Source of the DNA: Oscillospiraceae bacterium
Lineage (GTDB): Bacteria > Bacillota > Clostridia > Oscillospirales > CAG-272
Direction: 5' to 3'
Length of the DNA: 37,273 nt
NCBI GenBank assembly: GCA_015065365.1
Contig: SVQL01000005.1
Span: forward strand, 1 to 37,273
Shown: positions 2 to 25,843 of the stretch, piece after piece
Layout: each line of letters begins with the position of its first letter
How positions within the stretch are numbered: position 1 is the first letter of the stretch
Translations under genes and position numbers: made by a program
Notes under the pieces: generated by a model
The model's input: only the letters and a program-made list of their open reading frames with translations
Databases searched by the model: none
What the model was told of the DNA's origin: nothing

Positions 2-706
2 AAAAAGGTCTTTATCCGCTCGGGTATTCGCTTCGATTATCTGTTGCACGACAAGGACGACTCCTTTTTCCGCAAGCTTGTTAAGGATAACGTAAGCGGG
101 CAGCTCAAGGTAGCGCCCGAGCATTGCTCGTCTGCAGTTCTTTCCTGCATGGGCAAGCCCGAATTCGGTGTTTACGAGCGCTTCCGCGAAAAATATTTCC
201 GACTTACAAAGGAAATCGGCAAAGAGCAGTATCTTGTACCGTATCTTATGTCAAGCCACCCCGGATCGACGCTCAAGGATGCTCTTGAGCTTGCGCTCTG
301 TTTAAAGCGCGACAAGTACGCCCCCGAGCAGGTTCAGGACTATTACCCCACTCCGGGGACAGCTTCCACGGTTATGTTCAAGACGGGTATAAACCCACTT
401 ACCATGAAACGCGTGTACGTAGCAACCGATTACCATGAAAAGCTGCTTCAGCGCGCTCTTTTGCAGTATAACCGTCCCGAAAACGCGCCACTTGTGCGCG
501 AAGCACTGATAAAGCTCGGCAGAGAGGATCTTATAGGCTTTGATGAAAAGTGTCTTGTGAAACCCGAAAACAAGAATTACCATTCAAAAAAAGTAAATCA
601 AAAGATTGTAAAAAACAACACAGATAAATCTCACAATAAAACACCGACAAAGAAATTTTCTCAAAGTAAAAACAATTCAAAACACAAGCGTTCTTACCAA
701 AAATAA
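2..706 (+). CDS. ygiQ: YgiQ family radical SAM protein, C-terminal part (5' end lies outside the window)
   Basis: Frame is open from base 2 ([20 protein letters not shown]...); [38 protein letters not shown] and [18 protein letters not shown] match the YgiQ C-terminal half; Lys-rich tail. Confidence 0.9.
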
Positions 707-707
707 C

Positions 708-746
708 AAAAAAGTCGAAATGCTGAATTGCATTTCGACTTTTTTG
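708..746. terminator. Bidirectional intrinsic terminator between convergent ygiQ and rnc
   Basis: AAAAAAGTCGAAATGctgaattGCATTTCGACTTTTTT: long perfect stem with A/T tracts on both sides. Confidence 0.85.
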
Positions 747-769
747 TTTGTTTAAAATTTTCAACACAG

Positions 770-1471
770 TTAAATACCAAAAAGCTTTAGTGCCTCGCGC
801 GCGGCATTCTGCTCTGCCTCGCGCTTGGATTTTCCAACTCCGCGCCCAATAAGATTTGAGTTGAGTCTAACCTCAACCTCAAATTCCTTTGAGTGGTCGG
901 GGCCGCTTTCTCCCACCACGGTATAGGTAGGAGTCATTCCGTCGCTTACCTGCGTAAGCTGCTGAAGCTCGGTTTTAGCGTCGGAGTGAAGCATACTTTC
1001 GCCATTGTCTATCTGATTTTTGATTATAGGAAGCAAAAACTCCTTTACTCTGTCAATACCGTTATCGCCCGCGTCGAGAAATATAGCGGCAAGAAGTGCT
1101 TCAAAAGCATCCTCAAGAATGGACTGACGGTTTCGGTTTTTTTCCTCACCGTGGCCGAGATACAAATATTCTCCAAGTCCTATTTTCCTCGCGTAAGATG
1201 CAAGCGCCTGCGATTGAACGAGCGCAGCTCTTATATGAGTCAGATCTCCCTCGGGAAGGCTCGCGTATTTGGTAAACAAATATTCGCTCGTAACCAATGA
1301 CAGAACGGAATCTCCGAGAAACTCAAGTCGCTCGTTACAAACAGCATCTATTTTTCTTGCCCGAAGCTCGTGCGCGTATGACGAGTGAGTCAACGCCTCG
1401 CGAAGCAGCTCTTTGTTCTTAAAGGTATAGCCTATTGCATTTTCAAGAGCACCAATATCCGTTCTTTGCAT
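770..1471 (-). CDS. rnc: Ribonuclease III
   Basis: RNase III signature NERLEFLGDSVL; C-terminal dsRBD (DAKTELQQLTQ...GVGKSKREAEQNAAREAL). Confidence 0.96.
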   Translation of the reverse strand: MQRTDIGALENAIGYTFKNKELLREALTHSSYAHELRARKIDAVCNERLEFLGDSVLSLVTSEYLFTKYASLPEGDLTHIRAALVQSQALASYARKIGLGEYLYLGHGEEKNRNRQSILEDAFEALLAAIFLDAGDNGIDRVKEFLLPIIKNQIDNGESMLHSDAKTELQQLTQVSDGMTPTYTVVGESGPDHSKEFEVEVRLNSNLIGRGVGKSKREAEQNAAREALKLFGI

Positions 1472-1482
1472 TTGTTTCTCCT

Positions 1483-2811
1483 TTAAAGTATTTTATCCGC
1501 CATCTCCTCTATAATCTCAAGAGAACGCTCGGCATATTTTTCATATTTTGCGATTTTACCGCCCTTTACTCTCATAGGTAACGACTCAATTATTCCGAAG
1601 TTTGCATTCATGGGGACGAAATCTCCGCTTCCTCCTTCGGACACATAGTGCGCCATCGCGCCTATCATTGTAGTTTTGGGAAATACAGTCTTCTCCTCGC
1701 CAAGCGCGAGTGACGCCGCATTAAGTCCCGCAACAAATCCCGAGCCCGTAGATTCGATATATCCCTCAACACCCGTCATCTGTCCGGCAAAGAAAATGTT
1801 TTCTCTATCCTTCATAGCATAGGTAGCATCAAGCTTACCGGGTGAATTTATATACGTATTTCGATGCATAACTCCGTAGCGTAAAAATTCTGCGTTTTCA
1901 AGTCCGGGTATCATTCTGAACACCCTTCTCTGTTCGGGGAAGGTCAGATGCGTCTGAAATCCGACGAGATTATACATGCTTCCCTCGTCGTTTTCACGGC
2001 GAAGCTGAACTACCGCATGCGACTTACTTCCCGTACGCTTGTCCACCAAACCGACCGGCTTTAGCGGCCCAAAAAGAAGCGTATCGCGTCCGCGCCTTGC
2101 CATGACCTCAACGGGCATACAGCCCTCGAAAACCTTAAGCTTTTTCTGCTCCTCTTTGTCAAAATCCTTAAGAGTCGCCTCATCAGCGGTAACAAGCGCC
2201 TCCCAAAAAGCACTATACTGCTCCTCCGTCATAGGGCAGTTAATGTAATCCGCGTCACCCTTGTCGTAACGCGAGGCAAAAAAAGCCACGTCCATATTTA
2301 TAGATTGCGCATCAACTATTGGTGCCGCCGCATCAAAGAAATGAAGCCCATCGCCTACAAGCTCGTGACTTATATATTCCGCAAAGACGTCGGACGTAAG
2401 CGGTCCTGTTGCGATAACGGTAATTTCTCCGTCAGGCACTTCCGTGACCTCGCCCGCAATTACAGTTATATTTTCATTTTCTCTTATCTTTTGTGTGATA
2501 TACGCGGAAAATTTATCTCTGTCTACGGCGAGTGCCGAGCCTGCGGGAACTCTCGTGGCGTCAGCTGCCTCCATAATAAGAGAGCCCATACGACGAAGCT
2601 CCTCTTTAAGGAGTCCAACCGCATTAGTCGTGCTGTCCGAGCGCAGAGAGTTAGAACAAACAAGCTCTGCAAAATCCCTTGAATGATGCGCGGGGGTATA
2701 TTTTTCGGGCTTCATCTCAAAAAGCCTTACGTTTATACCCCGTCTTGCTATCTGCCAAGCTGCCTCGCAGCCTGCAAGTCCCGCGCCAAAAACGTTAACC
2801 GTTTTTTTCAT
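1483..2811 (-). CDS. trmFO: Methylenetetrahydrofolate--tRNA-(uracil-5-)-methyltransferase TrmFO
   Basis: N-terminal FAD motif [63 protein letters not shown]. Confidence 0.96.
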
Positions 2812-5108
2812 TATTCGTTATCTCCGTTTGAAGATGTCTCGTAAGGCTTTTTAAACGAGCATCCGTTTTTCTTACAAACGAGTATAGGCTGTCCCTTTTT
2901 GCGGAAAAGCATTTCTCCGCACTGAGGACATTTTTCATTGGTAGGAAGATCCCACGATGAAAAATCACATTCGGGATATTTCTCACAGCTGTAAAATACG
3001 GTCTTGTTGCGTCCCGTTTTCATTACTATTTTAGAGCCGCACTTAGGACATGGAACACCGATATCACGTGTTTTCTGCTTGGTGAAATCACATTCGGGAT
3101 AACGTACGCAAGCAAAGAACGAGCCGTAGCGTCCCGTTCTCTGAACCATATCAGACCCACATTTTTCACACTTGAAGTCAGCTATAACAACCTTTTTTTC
3201 CTCGGTTGCACTTCCCTCGTTATCCGTATCCACGGTCTTTGAAAGAGGCTTTGTATTGCGGCAGGTCGGATAATTCGGACATGCGGCAAACTTGCCGTAT
3301 CTTCCGTTCTTTATAACCATTCGACTTCCGCACTTGTCGCAAATCATATCTGTTTCCTCAACCGGTACCTCAAGCTCCTCGGACGACATCTTTTCGTTTG
3401 CTACCTCAAGCTCCTTTTCAAATCCACCCCAGAACTCTGAAAGGACACTGTTCATTTCGACACCACCGTTCTCGATGCTGTCAAGTCTGTCCTCCATATG
3501 TGCGGTGAACTCATAGTCAACTATATCGGGGAAGCTTTCCTTCATAAGCTTGTTAGTTAGCTCTCCCGTAGGCGTGGGAACAAGTGACTTGCCCTCTCGC
3601 TTTACATAGTTACGAGTAATTATCGTAGTTATAATTGTTGCAAAAGTACTCGGACGTCCTATACCCTTTTCCTCAAGGAACTTGATGAGAGACGCGTCGT
3701 TGTATCTTGCGGGCGGCTCGGTAAAATGCTTTGCGGGATCGGTAGAAACAAGAGCTATCTTTTGTCCTTCCTTGATATCGGGCAGGCGGATATTCTTCTC
3801 TTCTCTTACCTCGTCAGCAGTGCGAACGGTATCCTCCTCGCTCTCCTCGTAAACCGCCATATAGCCTTGGAAATCAACGGTATATCCGCTTGTTCTGAAA
3901 ATATATCCCGCCGACTCAAAGTCAGCCGTAACGGTTGAAAGCACCGCGCTCTCCATCTGGCTCGCGATAAATCTTTCCCATATAAGCTTATACAGCTTAA
4001 ACTGGTCACTTGTTACGTACTTCCTTATTTTTGCAGGCTCAAGGTCAATTCGAGAGGGTCTGATTGCCTCGTGCGCGTCCTGTGCTCCTGCCTTTTGCTT
4101 ATAGCTTCTTGCGACAGAAGGATAGTACTTATCTCCGAATTTTTCGCCAATATAGCTTCTTGCCTCCTCCTGCGCCTGGACAGAAACTCTCTGTGAGTCT
4201 GTACGCATGTAGGTTATAAGACCTTGAATTCCTCCGTTTTCCGAACCGACGTTAACGCCTTCGTAAAGCTCCTGCGCAATACGCATAATCTTCTGTGACT
4301 GGAATCCAAGCTTCTTTGCCGCCTCCTGCTGCATAGTAGACGTAGTAAACGGGGGAGCGGGAAGCTTCTTTTTCTTGGACTTTCGAACTGAGCTTACACT
4401 GAAATCAGACGTGCTTACGGCGTTTACCACCTTCATAGCGTCCGCCTCGCAGCTAAGCTTCATCTTTCCTCTTGCATTTCCGTAAAAACGAACGGTAAAT
4501 TCCTGATTATTATTAGCGCAAAGAGTAGCGTCAACCGTCCAATACTCGACCGGCTTGAATTCTCTGATCTCCTCCTCACGCTCAACGATTATTCTGGTAG
4601 CCACCGACTGAACGCGACCTGCCGACAGCCCGCTTCTTACGTGCTTCCAGAGAAACGGAGATAGCTTGTAACCAACTATTCTGTCAAGAATTCTTCTTGC
4701 CTGCTGGGAGTTTACAAGATCCATATCAATGGCTCTCGGCTCCTTGATAGCCGCCTTTACAGCCGTCTTGGTTATCTCGTTAAAGGTTACGCGAAGCGTA
4801 TTCTCGGGCTCTATTCCGAGAGCAGTAGCCAAATGCCATGAAATAGCCTCTCCCTCTCGGTCAGGGTCGGTTGCTAAGAATACTTTATTTGCGTTTTTCG
4901 CTTCCTTCTTTATGTCCTTGATAAGGTCTCCCTTACCTCTTATGTTTATATAATGAGCCTCAAAGCCGTTCTCAATATCAACTCCCAACTTACTCTTGGG
5001 AAGATCTCTCACGTGTCCCTTGGATGCAACTACCTTGTAGTTAGATCCAAGATATCCTTTTATCGTAGCGGCCTTGGAGGGTGACTCCACTATAACAAGA
5101 TTTGCCAT
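2811..5108 (-). CDS. topA: DNA topoisomerase I
   Basis: Toprim [44 protein letters not shown], and four C-terminal Cys4 zinc ribbons. Stop/start overlaps trmFO (TAATG). Confidence 0.97.
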
Positions 5109-5145
5109 ATATTTTTCCTTTCAATGTTCTTTATATTCTAAGTAC

Positions 5146-6450
5146 TCAAGACTGCTTTTTATATGCTCCTCCGGGTTGGGAGATAATGAGTCCCGATATT
5201 TCAAGTAGCGTAAGCGACGTTATCACATCTCTGACATCTGCTCCGCGCGACACTATATCATCCGCCACAAAGATGGCGTCGTCCGGGATAAGAGCATATA
5301 TCTCTTTTGTTTTAACGTCGAGTGTTTTAAGAATGTCATTATGAAAATTCGAATTTTGAGTAGTTTTTGCTTCATAAGCCACTGACTCCCGTATAGGTTC
5401 ATCCGTCGCGGTAGCTTCTACCGATTTCTGCTGCTCTGTCTTTTCGATGACCTCATCATATCCTCCACGATAAGAAGCTTCCGAAGCGCCATATTCCTTA
5501 AGCACTTTTGCATCGAAATCGGAATGCTTGGTTGCCCACGCAAGCCTTTTGAAATTAAAGGTGTCGTGATAAAGAAAATCATAATGCGATATTAGATCGT
5601 TTGCGGACAGTACAACGTTTGCTCCGCTCCTTATAAGCTCATTAGGCCCCGTCGCTCTCGCCTCGCCAATCTGTCCGGGCAATGCAAAAAGCTCTCTGCC
5701 CTGTGCAACAGCTCTTGATGCGGTTATAAGAGCTCCGCTTCTTTTCGCCGCCTCAACAACGAGCACTCCATTAGACATACCGCTGATTATTCGGTTTCTT
5801 ATTGGGAAATTGTTCTGCAAAGGACGCTCAAAGGGCGGGAATTCGCTTATTACCGCGCCATGCTTTGCAATCTTACGCATAAGCCTTGCGTGCTCCTTCG
5901 GATAGACAACAGAAAGTCCGCTGCCGAGAACAGCGACGGTTTCTCCGCCTGCCTTGAGGGCAGCTGCAGCGCAAACGCCATCAATACCAAGCGCCATTCC
6001 ACTCACCACGCACACTCTCGCCGCAGATAGCTCATATGCTATTTTATACGCAGAACACTTTCCGTATTCGCTCATTTTTCTCGTACCGACCATTCCGATA
6101 CAAAGTCTTTGATCAACGTTTGGAAGCTTTCCTAAGCAATAAAGCATAACAGGCGGATTTTCAATAGTACGCAAACGCGAGGGATACCTCTCGTCCGTAT
6201 ATCCTATTACCTCTATTCCCTGCCTTTGACAGTACTTAAGATACTTATAGGGAATTTCAAGCGATTTATCAGCAAGACGAGCCTTCGTAATATCCTTAAT
6301 TCCCTCTATCTGCTCCAGCTCCTCCTCCGACATTCTGTAAACGTCGTAAGGATCGTCAAACGTCGTAACAAAGCTTGGAAATTCCTTCGACGCAATACCG
6401 AATTTTTCCGCAAGCCATATCCAATAAAGCGCATTCTCGTCTTTTCTCAT
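5146..6450 (-). CDS. dprA: DNA processing protein DprA/Smf
   Basis: VGTRKMSEYGK, GMALGIDGVCAAAALKAGGETVAVLGSGLSVVYPKEH, SGALITASRAVAQGRELFALPG. Preferred start ATG 6450, overlapping the upstream TGA (ATGA). Confidence 0.94.
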   Translation of the reverse strand: MRKDENALYWIWLAEKFGIASKEFPSFVTTFDDPYDVYRMSEEELEQIEGIKDITKARLADKSLEIPYKYLKYCQRQGIEVIGYTDERYPSRLRTIENPPVMLYCLGKLPNVDQRLCIGMVGTRKMSEYGKCSAYKIAYELSAARVCVVSGMALGIDGVCAAAALKAGGETVAVLGSGLSVVYPKEHARLMRKIAKHGAVISEFPPFERPLQNNFPIRNRIISGMSNGVLVVEAAKRSGALITASRAVAQGRELFALPGQIGEARATGPNELIRSGANVVLSANDLISHYDFLYHDTFNFKRLAWATKHSDFDAKVLKEYGASEASYRGGYDEVIEKTEQQKSVEATATDEPIRESVAYEAKTTQNSNFHNDILKTLDVKTKEIYALIPDDAIFVADDIVSRGADVRDVITSLTLLEISGLIISQPGGAYKKQS

Positions 6451-21176: not shown

Positions 21177-22295
21177 ATGAAAAGAATCATAACTTTTTGT
21201 TTGATTTTGGCGATAATTACAGGATTATTTACCGTTTTCCCAAATGCTGATACGTCGCTTACAGTATCAGCAAAAAGCGCCGTGCTTATCGATGCGTATA
21301 GCGGCAGCGTGCTTTACGAAAAGAATGCTCACGAGCCCATGGGAATGGCAAGTACGACCAAAATTATGACAGCGCTTACCGTTCTGCGGCTGTGCTCTGC
21401 TGACTCCGTAGTTACAGTTTCTAAGGAAGCCGTCGGTACGGAAGGCTCGTCAATTTATCTTTGCGAGGGCGAGCAGCTTACAGTTGAACAGCTTTTATAC
21501 GCTCTCCTACTCTCGTCTGCAAACGATGCAGCGGTAGCCCTCGCGATACATTGCGCGGGAAGCGTTGAAAAATTTGCAGAAGCTATGAACAAATACGCCG
21601 CTGAACTTGGTATTGAGGACACAAATTTTACCAATCCACACGGTCTTTACGACGAAAATCACTACACCACAGCACTCTCTCTTGCTCTAATAGCGCGCGA
21701 AGCGATAAAAAGTGAGCTTTTGCGTAAAATATTTTCAACGTATAAAACCACCATTCCATTCAACGGTACACCCGACCGTCGCCTTCTTGTAAATCACAAC
21801 AAGCTTTTGCGCACATACTACGGAGCTATCGGCGTAAAAACAGGATTTACAAAAAAGACGGGTAGAACACTTGTAAGCGCTGCTGAACGTGATGACCTGA
21901 CGTTAATTGCAGTAACGCTTAACGCTCCCGACGATTGGCGCGACCACACCTCAATGCTTGATTACGGCTTTGAGCATTATGAAAGACGAGTTTTTTACGG
22001 CATTGGAGAATATGAATACGCCCTTCCCGCAGCGGGCTCTGATACAGATTTTGCAATTCTTACGAATACCGAGCCGCTTGCCCTTACCGTCAAAAAAGGC
22101 ACGAGCGATGCTTTTGTTCGAGTGTATTCAAGCTACCGATTCGTTTACGCTCCTACCGATGCAGATACCGAAATCGGCAAGGTTGAGCTTTGCGCAGACG
22201 GGAGAATTGCGTCTTCCTCACTCATAACAAGCAAAAAGGTCAGCACCGTAAAAAAAGAAAAATCCTTCTGGGATAAATTGTTTAAAAAGGACTGA
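21177..22295 (+). CDS. dacF: D-alanyl-D-alanine carboxypeptidase (DacF-like)
   Basis: Signal peptide; ASTTKIMTALTVL (SxxK), SSANDAAVALA (SxN), VKTGFTKKTGRTLVSAA (KTG). Confidence 0.92.
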   Translation: MKRIITFCLILAIITGLFTVFPNADTSLTVSAKSAVLIDAYSGSVLYEKNAHEPMGMASTTKIMTALTVLRLCSADSVVTVSKEAVGTEGSSIYLCEGEQLTVEQLLYALLLSSANDAAVALAIHCAGSVEKFAEAMNKYAAELGIEDTNFTNPHGLYDENHYTTALSLALIAREAIKSELLRKIFSTYKTTIPFNGTPDRRLLVNHNKLLRTYYGAIGVKTGFTKKTGRTLVSAAERDDLTLIAVTLNAPDDWRDHTSMLDYGFEHYERRVFYGIGEYEYALPAAGSDTDFAILTNTEPLALTVKKGTSDAFVRVYSSYRFVYAPTDADTEIGKVELCADGRIASSSLITSKKVSTVKKEKSFWDKLFKKD

Positions 22296-22299
22296 AAAT

Positions 22300-23034
22300 A
22301 TGGCACCAATCCGCTTGCAAAAATATTTCACCGATTGTGGGGTAATGTCAAGACGCGCCGCGGAGGAGCAAATACTACTCGGCAAGGTAAAAGTAAATGG
22401 AATTATTGCATCCGTTGGAGATACGGTTGAGCCCGGAATAGACAAGGTTGAGTTTAACGGAAAAATAATTATTCCCATGACTGAAGAAAACGTCTGCATA
22501 ATGCTCAACAAGCCGCGAGGTTACGTAACAACGATGGCAGATGAAAGAGGCAGAAAGAACGTCAGTGAGCTTGTGAAAGACGTTAAAACAAGAGTTTATC
22601 CGATAGGACGTCTTGACATGGACTCAGATGGTCTTCTGTTGCTTACAAACAACGGCGCTCTTGCAAATAAGCTTACTCACCCGCGTCACGAAATACCAAA
22701 AATATATCGCATAAACGTCAAGGGTATTCCAACAGCCGAGCAGTTAAAGCATCTTGGCTCCGAAATGAAAATTGACGGATACAAAATTTTGCCCGTCAAG
22801 GTTGAAGTCGTATCGCGTGCTCGAACTGCGGACGAAGCAAGTGTACTTCAAATGACACTTTACGAAGGAAGAAACCGCCAGATACGCAAAATGTGCGATG
22901 CCGTTGGCCTTAAAATACGACGACTTACTCGTATATCAATAGGCAAAGTTTCGCTTGGCTCTCTTTCGTCAGGTAAATGGCGCAGACTCACAAAAAAAGA
23001 AATTGATTATCTTATGAATGATAAGGAAAACTGA
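22300..23034 (+). CDS. rluB: Pseudouridine synthase (RluB/RsuA family)
   Basis: S4 domain RLQKYFTDCGVMSRRAAEEQILLGKVKVNG; NKPRGYVTT; YPIGRLDMDSDGLLLLTNNG; EGRNRQIRKMC. Confidence 0.93.
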   Translation: MAPIRLQKYFTDCGVMSRRAAEEQILLGKVKVNGIIASVGDTVEPGIDKVEFNGKIIIPMTEENVCIMLNKPRGYVTTMADERGRKNVSELVKDVKTRVYPIGRLDMDSDGLLLLTNNGALANKLTHPRHEIPKIYRINVKGIPTAEQLKHLGSEMKIDGYKILPVKVEVVSRARTADEASVLQMTLYEGRNRQIRKMCDAVGLKIRRLTRISIGKVSLGSLSSGKWRRLTKKEIDYLMNDKEN

Positions 23035-23036
23035 TT

Positions 23037-23417
23037 ATGATAAAGGTATTACCAATTCAATCCAAGCTCCGTCAGGAAGAAATATGCATCAAATGCGGAG
23101 TTGAATACGATGCAGATCTGCTTGCGTATGCCGTTTCCGTTGACGACCGTCTTTCAGGTATCTGCCAATTTAAGCTTACAGATAAAGGCGGGGTGATTTA
23201 CGATATAGCGGCAACCACAGATCACTACGACGCAGATGCTCTGTTCGTTATGGGGCGCGGAGCACTTAATTTTATCGATCTGTGCGGTGTTCACTACGCA
23301 ACATACGTCGGAAACAGCGCCGAAGATTCTCTTTTGAAGAAAATAGGATTCAAGAAAAACAACGACGGTGTTTATGAAATCGATCTTAACGGATTTTTCA
23401 CGGATCACTGCCACTGA
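23037..23417 (+). CDS. Small GNAT-like protein, function unknown
   Basis: Good coding context 2 nt after rluB; pattern ...SGICQFKL...IYDIAA...DALFVMGRGALNFIDLCGVHYATY...LLKKIGFKKN resembles a short GNAT fold. Confidence 0.7.
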   Translation: MIKVLPIQSKLRQEEICIKCGVEYDADLLAYAVSVDDRLSGICQFKLTDKGGVIYDIAATTDHYDADALFVMGRGALNFIDLCGVHYATYVGNSAEDSLLKKIGFKKNNDGVYEIDLNGFFTDHCH

Positions 23418-23436
23418 TACAATACCAAAATAAAAG

Positions 23437-23465
23437 TTGACAAATCATATTTTTTGTGATATAAT
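23437..23465 (+). promoter_or_regulatory. Sigma-A-type promoter of the Wzz/BY-kinase/phosphatase operon
   Basis: TTGACA - 17 nt - TATAAT; leader has hairpins CGGTTttgtAACCG and CCAACggaatGTTGG before the SD. Confidence 0.8.
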
Positions 23466-23532
23466 ATAACTCGCGGTTTTGTAACCGTTATAATAAGCTT
23501 AACCAACGGAATGTTGGCTGAAAGGATTTATC

Positions 23533-24366
23533 ATGACAAAGGAAATTAATATTTCGCTTCTTTTCAAGGTTTTTAAATCGGCATGGTGGAAAATTCTCAT
23601 TATAACCGTTGCCGTTGCTGTCGCAGTTGCTGCCTTCACGGCGTTCGCGATTGATCCCAAATATGCGGCAACAACTAAATTTTACGTCATAAACACAAGC
23701 ACGACCTCGGAATATACGACTACCGCGCTTCTTTCCGCGGCAGAATATCTCGCTAACGACTACATAGAAATTATCAACGGCGACGATATGATGGAAATGG
23801 TCAAGGGCAAGCTTGAAAGCAATCAAGAGCTTAAGGATAAGGGCTACACAACCTTTAACAAGTCCGAGATTCGCGGTATGATTACGTCTGCTACGTCAAG
23901 CGAATCCTCTACGTTCACGATAACCGCAACGCATACCGACTATGCGGTTGCTTATTACGTATGCAAAGCGCTCGAGTCAACCGAAGCTCTCGAAATAATA
24001 AAGAATGCGGCACGTCCGAGCTACAGCTCTAATATTTATCAATGGAGAGATCTTAACGGTGACGGTAAAAAGGATGCAGACGAATTTTCTACTATTTCCG
24101 AGACTGACCTCGAATGCGTAAAGGTTCTTCGTTCTCCATCTCAGGATGTCCCTGCCCCCGTTTCTCCCGATGTAGTAAATTACACCTTCATTGCGGCAGT
24201 AGCATCCGCTGTGATAGCATACGCAATATTCCTTGTAAAAAAGCTTGCCGATACCGTTATACGCGGCGAGGAGTCTGCCAAGGATCTCGTTGATGAAACG
24301 GTTATCGGAGATATTCCCACTTGGACAAAATCAGCAACGACTGCAAAAGAGGAAGATAAAAAATGA
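23533..24366 (+). CDS. Wzz/CapA-type chain-length determinant (BY-kinase adaptor) with an EF-hand-like loop
   Basis: Two TM segments flanking an extracytoplasmic domain; MTKEINISLLFKVFKSAWWKILIITV start; 4-nt overlap with the kinase gene; DLNGDGKKDADE motif. Confidence 0.88.
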   Translation: MTKEINISLLFKVFKSAWWKILIITVAVAVAVAAFTAFAIDPKYAATTKFYVINTSTTSEYTTTALLSAAEYLANDYIEIINGDDMMEMVKGKLESNQELKDKGYTTFNKSEIRGMITSATSSESSTFTITATHTDYAVAYYVCKALESTEALEIIKNAARPSYSSNIYQWRDLNGDGKKDADEFSTISETDLECVKVLRSPSQDVPAPVSPDVVNYTFIAAVASAVIAYAIFLVKKLADTVIRGEESAKDLVDETVIGDIPTWTKSATTAKEEDKK

Positions 24367-25103
24367 AGAAAATAAATACGGCAAGAAAAAAGGCGCGGCT
24401 CGTAAGTGAGTCCACTCCCTTTGCAATAAGAGAGTCCTTTAATCAGCTTCGCATCAATATAATGTACTCTCCTCACGACAGCGAAGGCGCTCCTGTTTAC
24501 GCAATTACCTCTGCCGAGCAAGGAGTTGGAAAGAGCACGGTTTCAGCAAACGTTGCGCTGTCATTCTCTCAGGCTGGTCAAAAGGTGTTGCTCATAGATG
24601 CAGATATGCGTTGCCCTACGCAATATAAATTTTTCGGCTACGAAAAAAAGCAGAGCGGATTCAGCGAGCTTCTTTCGGGAATAGCAAAGGAGTCAAGCGC
24701 CGCTGTTTCCGTTTACTCGGATAATTTACATATAATAACCAGCGGTTGCATACCTCCTAACCCTTCTGCTCTCCTTATGAGCGGTAAGCTCTCGACTCTC
24801 GTTGAGCAATGGAAAAATGAATACGACATAATCTTTATCGACCTCCCGCCCGTAGGAATCGTTTCCGATCCTATCGTAATTGCAGGTCTGGTTGACGGAT
24901 ATATCTTAGTTGCAAGAGCAAACGTCAGCAACTCAAAGCACGTTAACACAGCTATACGCTCCCTTAAGAACGTCGGCGCAAAGATAACGGGACTTGTTAT
25001 CAACGGAACAAGCTACAAGGGCAGTGAGAACAAAAAGTACGCACGCGGAAAATACAGCTATAAATACGGATACACTTACGAATACGGTAATAAAGACGAC
25101 TAA
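24363..25103 (+). CDS. CpsD/CapB family tyrosine-protein kinase
   Basis: ESFNQLRINIMYS; Walker A SAEQGVGKSTVSANVA; Walker A' VLLIDADMRCPTQYKFFG; IIFIDLPPVGIVSDP; Tyr-rich C-terminus. Confidence 0.95.
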   Translation: MKKINTARKKARLVSESTPFAIRESFNQLRINIMYSPHDSEGAPVYAITSAEQGVGKSTVSANVALSFSQAGQKVLLIDADMRCPTQYKFFGYEKKQSGFSELLSGIAKESSAAVSVYSDNLHIITSGCIPPNPSALLMSGKLSTLVEQWKNEYDIIFIDLPPVGIVSDPIVIAGLVDGYILVARANVSNSKHVNTAIRSLKNVGAKITGLVINGTSYKGSENKKYARGKYSYKYGYTYEYGNKDD

Positions 25104-25138
25104 TCCCCCGCAAACAAAATACGGAAAGGACAAGCCGC

Positions 25139-25843
25139 ATGAATTACGCACCGACTGTTATCGATTTTCATGCTCATATTCTTCCTAATATTGACCACGG
25201 TTGTCGGTCTCTTGAGGAATGTAAAAAACAGCTTGAGCTTATTCGCTCCAACAAGACGGATACAGTAGTTGCTACTCCTCATTTTTACCCACACGTTCAC
25301 AGAATTGACGATTTTAAAAAATCACTTAAAGAATCAATCAACAGCATCAAGCTTGCAAATTTTGAGAACTCTCCTCAAATTTTTGTTGGTGCCGAGGTGC
25401 TTTTGTGCGAAAATCTATCAAAAATGGACGGGCTTTCGGAGCTTTGTATCAACGGAACGAAAACAATTCTGTTAGAGCTGCCGATGAGTTCCTTAAGGGA
25501 AGGACATTTTGACACGGTGGATGACATGCTCTCGAAAGATTTTAAAATCGTTCTTGCGCACGTTGACAGATACTTAAGAATTTGTCCGCATGACCTTGAC
25601 ACGTTACGGGATATGGGCGTGTTGATGCAGGTAAATGCGAGTGCTCTTTCCCCATTCTCCCTCCACGGGCGTCTAAAGCGCTACGTTGAGGAAGGAAGCG
25701 TTTGTGCGCTGGGCAGCGATCTTCACGGAGCAAATCCACTTGATTACAAGAGATTTTCCAAAGCACCGTCAGTACTGAAAAATCATTATTTAGATATAAT
25801 GAATAAGTCACAAAAAATTTTAGAAAATGCGATCTCAATATAA
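25139..25843 (+). CDS. CpsB/CapC family PHP-type tyrosine-protein phosphatase
   Basis: IDFHAHILPNIDHGCRSLEE, VATPHFYPH, VLAHVDRYL, LGSDLHG. Confidence 0.94.
   Translation: MNYAPTVIDFHAHILPNIDHGCRSLEECKKQLELIRSNKTDTVVATPHFYPHVHRIDDFKKSLKESINSIKLANFENSPQIFVGAEVLLCENLSKMDGLSELCINGTKTILLELPMSSLREGHFDTVDDMLSKDFKIVLAHVDRYLRICPHDLDTLRDMGVLMQVNASALSPFSLHGRLKRYVEEGSVCALGSDLHGANPLDYKRFSKAPSVLKNHYLDIMNKSQKILENAISI

Follow-up and report, generated by a model that had tools for sequence, protein, structure and literature searches.

The 37,273-nucleotide stretch of DNA analysed in this study (the window) carries a cpsC-cpsD-cpsB gene set on its forward strand. The first gene, cpsC (23533..24366), encodes a 277-residue Wzz-type polysaccharide co-polymerase (PCP) and BY-kinase modulator, as judged from PF02706, TIGR01006 and Foldseek. 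Its stop codon is overlapped by the start of the cpsD ORF (24363..25103), which encodes a BY-kinase with a Tyr-rich tail (TIGR01007, E 8.9e-55), and this is followed by cpsB (25139..25843), encoding a PHP-family phosphotyrosine phosphatase of the CpsB/CapC type (PF19567, E 3.7e-27). The three genes are found among conserved housekeeping genes (DacF, RluB and a GNAT-like ORF), both in the window (21177-25843) and in locus L039 from a relative (617-5301). No polysaccharide cluster was recognised beside cpsCDB within the window. A polysaccharide pathway appears to be present in the genome, where three Bac_transf (PF02397) genes, several Polysacc_synt (PF01943) matches and one LCP-family gene (PF03816) are all located on contigs other than that of cpsCDB.

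The CpsC protein scores above threshold with the Pfam Wzz model (PF02706; 40.6 bits against a cut-off of 25.5, E 3.3e-10), and TIGR01006 gives a partial match that is under its cut-off (E 1.1e-20). The PCP fold is recovered by Foldseek, whose PDB matches include WzzE, KpsE and Wzc with E values below 1e-3. The AlphaFold2 model (mean pLDDT 83) contains membrane helices at residues 7-39 and 214-241, and the second of these, TM2 (24172..24255, forward strand), is also apparent as hydrophobic sequence. All features used to judge membership of the Wzz/CpsC family were found, namely the Wzz domain, two transmembrane (TM) segments with the PCP fold, and neighbouring genes for a BY-kinase and a PHP phosphatase. 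The Wzz-type family proposed in the first-pass annotation of this DNA is upheld.

Compared with its relatives, the region of CpsC spanning residues 89-160 (23797-24012) carries six extra residues at about positions 92-97. Position 153 is Leu, where at least 90% of relatives have Pro; a one-residue insertion adjoins this site, and the model shows a break in the helix at this point.

Predicted structural setting of the loop

The sequence at 24049..24084 on the forward strand reads GATCTTAACGGTGACGGTAAAAAGGATGCAGACGAA, is in frame within the ORF at 23533-24366, and is translated to DLNGDGKKDADE, corresponding to residues 173-184 of CpsC. Because the helices at 7-39 and 214-241 are the TM segments, this loop is located on the ectodomain side of the protein, 30 residues ahead of TM2. 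Its ligand spacing fits the Dx[DN]xDG class of Ca2+ loops, in which the string D-x-[DN]-x-D-G is followed by a later acidic ligand, and the candidate ligands are D173, N175, D177, D181 and E184. The first-pass annotation had therefore read the sequence and frame of the loop correctly, and its placement of the loop outside the cell ahead of TM2, as well as the likeness to Ca2+ loops that it pointed out, agree with the model and the ligand spacing, respectively.

In the AlphaFold2 model, DSSP assigns one strand to residues 169-173 (Y-Q-W-R-D; 24037..24051, forward strand), the last of which is also the first Asp of the loop, and a second strand to residues 183-187 (D-E-F-S-T; 24079..24093, forward strand). 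The two strands form a beta-hairpin that is capped by the loop, a strand-loop-strand arrangement predicted with moderate confidence in the loop region (pLDDT 64-77). For the CpsC protein of a close relative (L004), the same hairpin is predicted with a pLDDT of about 90, and there the turn is KNENGE, without the motif. Formation of the hairpin thus appears to be independent of the Ca2+-type loop. A Dx[DN]xDG loop in a strand-loop-strand setting is a more fitting description of the element than the 'EF-hand' label that was attached to it previously.

Several observations led us to abandon that label. A helix-loop-helix around the loop is absent from the model, in which the two strands occupy the flanking positions at the moderate loop pLDDT given above. 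The consensus for EF-hand loops has a hydrophobic residue at position 8, which is Lys in CpsC. A PROSITE-type EF-hand pattern does not match the loop; this pattern is strict, as it also misses the dockerin and solute-binding examples encoded by the same genome. The Pfam EF-hand_5 model yields 13.3 bits on CpsC against a cut-off of 25.9. It is thus very improbable that CpsC has gained a true EF-hand or dockerin-type module, even though the weak best matches of searches with the segment are EF-hand proteins and the FrpC self-processing module, since the best E values are 0.005 with the segment and 0.6 with the whole protein. The loop resembles canonical EF-hands and dockerins at residues 1, 3, 5, 6, 9 and 12, but it differs from them in its flanking structure, in the Lys at position 8 and in being present as a single copy; the tandem loop-helix repeats of dockerins were not found in CpsC.

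The FrpC module (6sjw/6sjx) has a similar W-x-D-L-N-x-D-G string. However, its whole-protein match is insignificant (E 0.6) and its fold and function are unrelated. It was dropped as a homology lead because the match is too weak and is confined to the loop.

Conservation and rarity of the loop

A single-sequence scan of genome contigs returned no relatives, and an alignment query returned 15 loci, all in Clostridia/Oscillospiraceae metagenome-assembled genomes, many from ruminant gut. A genus search covered 30 genomes. Together, genus, order and phylum samples yielded 124 unique Wzz-like ORFs, drawn from the best-scoring loci of each search (30 at most) and from 40 additional regions, and this survey is biased towards strong Wzz matches because of that intake. 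Among the 124 sampled ORFs, the window protein is the only one with a Dx[DN]xDG string and later acidic ligands. One other ORF (L008) carries the string DSNVNG, but at a different place and without the later ligands. In some relatives (L009, L027 and L031; the second copy in G015, as well as G031 and G053), the Wzz part is fused to the BY-kinase in a single ORF of about 500-560 aa. Such fusions are more common in Gram-negative bacteria.

The window protein belongs to a clade of five, whose other members (L003, L004, L005 and L006) are 49-55% identical to it and align over the full length. In all five, extra sequence is inserted after the last ectodomain helix and ahead of the last strand that precedes TM2. 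This insertion is widely variable among the other members of the genus and nearly missing in most outgroups. Across the genus (L007-L021), it measures about 53-101 aa between fixed points, compared with about 41 in most outgroups, and in several members it has a helical look rather than that of a hairpin.

Within the clade, L003 (KDENGND), L004 (KNENGETVDKY) and L006 (APDGTVQYE) retain the segment, and their turns are short and of the N/G or D/G type. At the same site, L005, from the same genus, has the segment DLDGNGVPSGLDEF, which includes a weaker loop of the DxDxNG form, DLDGNGVPSGLDE. Its gene order (locus L039) is that of the window: DacF, RluB, GNAT-like, CpsC, CpsD and CpsB. Judged on sequence, the full loop appears to be nearly restricted to one species. 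The first-pass annotation had named absence from all close orthologues as grounds for rejecting its proposal. The loop is indeed missing in three of the four closest relatives and in the other sampled Wzz ORFs, but this absence is not quite complete because L005 retains a related loop in the same place. In a tree of the clade, L005 is the first branch and the window protein clusters with L003 and L006, which leaves two histories for the Asp loop: two separate origins, or presence in the ancestor followed by loss.

Because the motif was singled out post hoc from a large window, estimates of its chance occurrence serve as a guide and not as a test: given the amino-acid composition of the window's genes, 2.6e-5 occurrences of D.[DN].DG..D..E are expected per 277 aa and about 0.05 per genome, and when the local 34-residue segment is shuffled, 5.5e-5 of trials contain a slightly relaxed pattern. 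A pattern search of the 1.75-Mb genome with D.[DN].[DN]G..[DN]..[DE] finds four sites where 0.27 are expected. The other three are in a dockerin-type repeat pair (L034), a solute-binding lipoprotein (L035) and a low-complexity linker (L033); the first two are typical carriers of Ca2+ loops. Given the low expectation and the excess of sites, the loop is unlikely to be an accident of composition, though it was picked after the fact.

A different question is whether the loop is the neutral outcome of a fast-changing hairpin turn rich in D, N and G, without useful metal binding. This is possible, and it is the alternative that we take most seriously. Both the length and the sequence of the region differ strongly across the genus, three of four close relatives lack the motif, and Asp/Gly-rich tracts readily give rise to Dx[DN]xDG, according to Rigden et al. 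(PMC3123361). Against neutrality, both later ligand positions, D9 and E12, are filled, the frequency under local shuffling is low (5.5e-5, again as a guide), and L005 has a comparable loop in the same position.

Proposed role and comparison with known systems

The first-pass annotation also suggested that external calcium might be sensed by CpsC and signalled to the tyrosine kinase. In such a mechanism, a change in the ectodomain would pass through TM2 and the cytoplasmic tail to affect CpsD autophosphorylation and polymer length. Within the present data, this proposal is supported by nothing but the location of the loop, outside and near TM2; it is compatible with reports that the Wzz/CpsC family is required for kinase autophosphorylation and that ectodomain mutations in the pneumococcal homologue alter partner binding (PMC9216600). 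Nevertheless, a sensor of this kind is unlikely. The loop occurs in almost no relatives and is lacking in three of the four closest, and L005, whose loop is not identical, retains the same kinase and phosphatase. That relatives with the same kind of system lack the motif argues against a core role. The loop also sits at the tip of an added hairpin, outside the core, and the gut lumen is normally rich in calcium. For sensing, calcium levels would have to fluctuate about the Kd, and the signal would have to reach the kinase by some route. We consider it similarly doubtful that this BY-kinase modulator has gained an external Ca2+ site near TM2 through which kinase phosphorylation or polymer length would be governed by calcium in this gut lineage. 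In the unlikely event that calcium altered CpsD activity, BY-kinase modulators would have a defined external ligand.

We favour the interpretation, with a probability of roughly 0.55, that the loop evolved recently as a Ca2+ cap, probably with a structural role, on a hairpin that has been inserted into the ectodomain of CpsC. This is supported by the exact ligand spacing, the rarity of the motif and its outside location, by the strand-loop-strand model in which D1 and E12 bound the loop, and by the related loop DLDGNGVPSGLDE at the same place in a syntenic locus. Two other genome sites with the pattern, in the dockerin-type pair and the solute-binding protein, point the same way. The report of Rigden et al. 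(PMC3123361) provides further support: Dx[DN]xDG loops arise repeatedly, mainly outside the cell, in any secondary-structure context and in many unrelated settings, often at positions where the loop of a homologue is shorter and lacks the motif, and one grafted between two strands of CD2 bound Ca2+. Against the cap stand the moderate loop pLDDT (64-77) and the absence of the motif from three of four close relatives, and a lone, unpaired Ca2+ site may bind too weakly to be of consequence.

In this uncultured Clostridia genus, CpsC proteins have an insertion, differing in length among members, that follows the last ectodomain helix and precedes the final strand ahead of TM2; in the five-member clade it is a beta-hairpin (as predicted for two members). 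Judging by sequence, the short N/G turn was replaced in the window species by a Dx[DN]xDG loop. Most likely, D173, N175, D177, D181 and E184 would hold one external Ca2+, which would stiffen and protect the hairpin tip. With millimolar external calcium, the site would be mostly filled, making the ion a structural metal and not a switch. The hairpin might touch other parts of the envelope or the polymerase, and CpsC would otherwise act as a normal co-polymerase and CpsD activator. The role of the loop is probably to stiffen CpsC rather than to sense calcium. The locus would catch a Dx[DN]xDG motif early, as the corresponding segment in close relatives still ends in short turns of an ordinary kind.

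The first-pass annotation knew of no described Wzz with such a loop. Likewise, no Wzz protein or BY-kinase modulator with a calcium loop was found in the open-licence literature, an absence that is weak evidence. Compared with Dx[DN]xDG loops outside EF-hands, such as those in strand-loop-strand settings and the CD2 graft (PMC3123361), the CpsC loop has the same D1-N3-D5-G6 spacing and later acidic residues, and it is likewise external and lineage-restricted, with homologues that have a shorter, motif-less turn. It differs in that metal binding is presumed and in its host, as polysaccharide co-polymerases are not listed in the portion of that article considered here. Like CpsC, Wzd and CapA, the Wzz-type PCP modulators of BY-kinases, the window protein has two TM helices, a PCP ectodomain fold and a cytoplasmic tail, with cpsD and cpsB as neighbours. 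Unlike them, it has an added hairpin, with a Ca2+-type loop at its tip, where the last ectodomain helix leads into the last strand.
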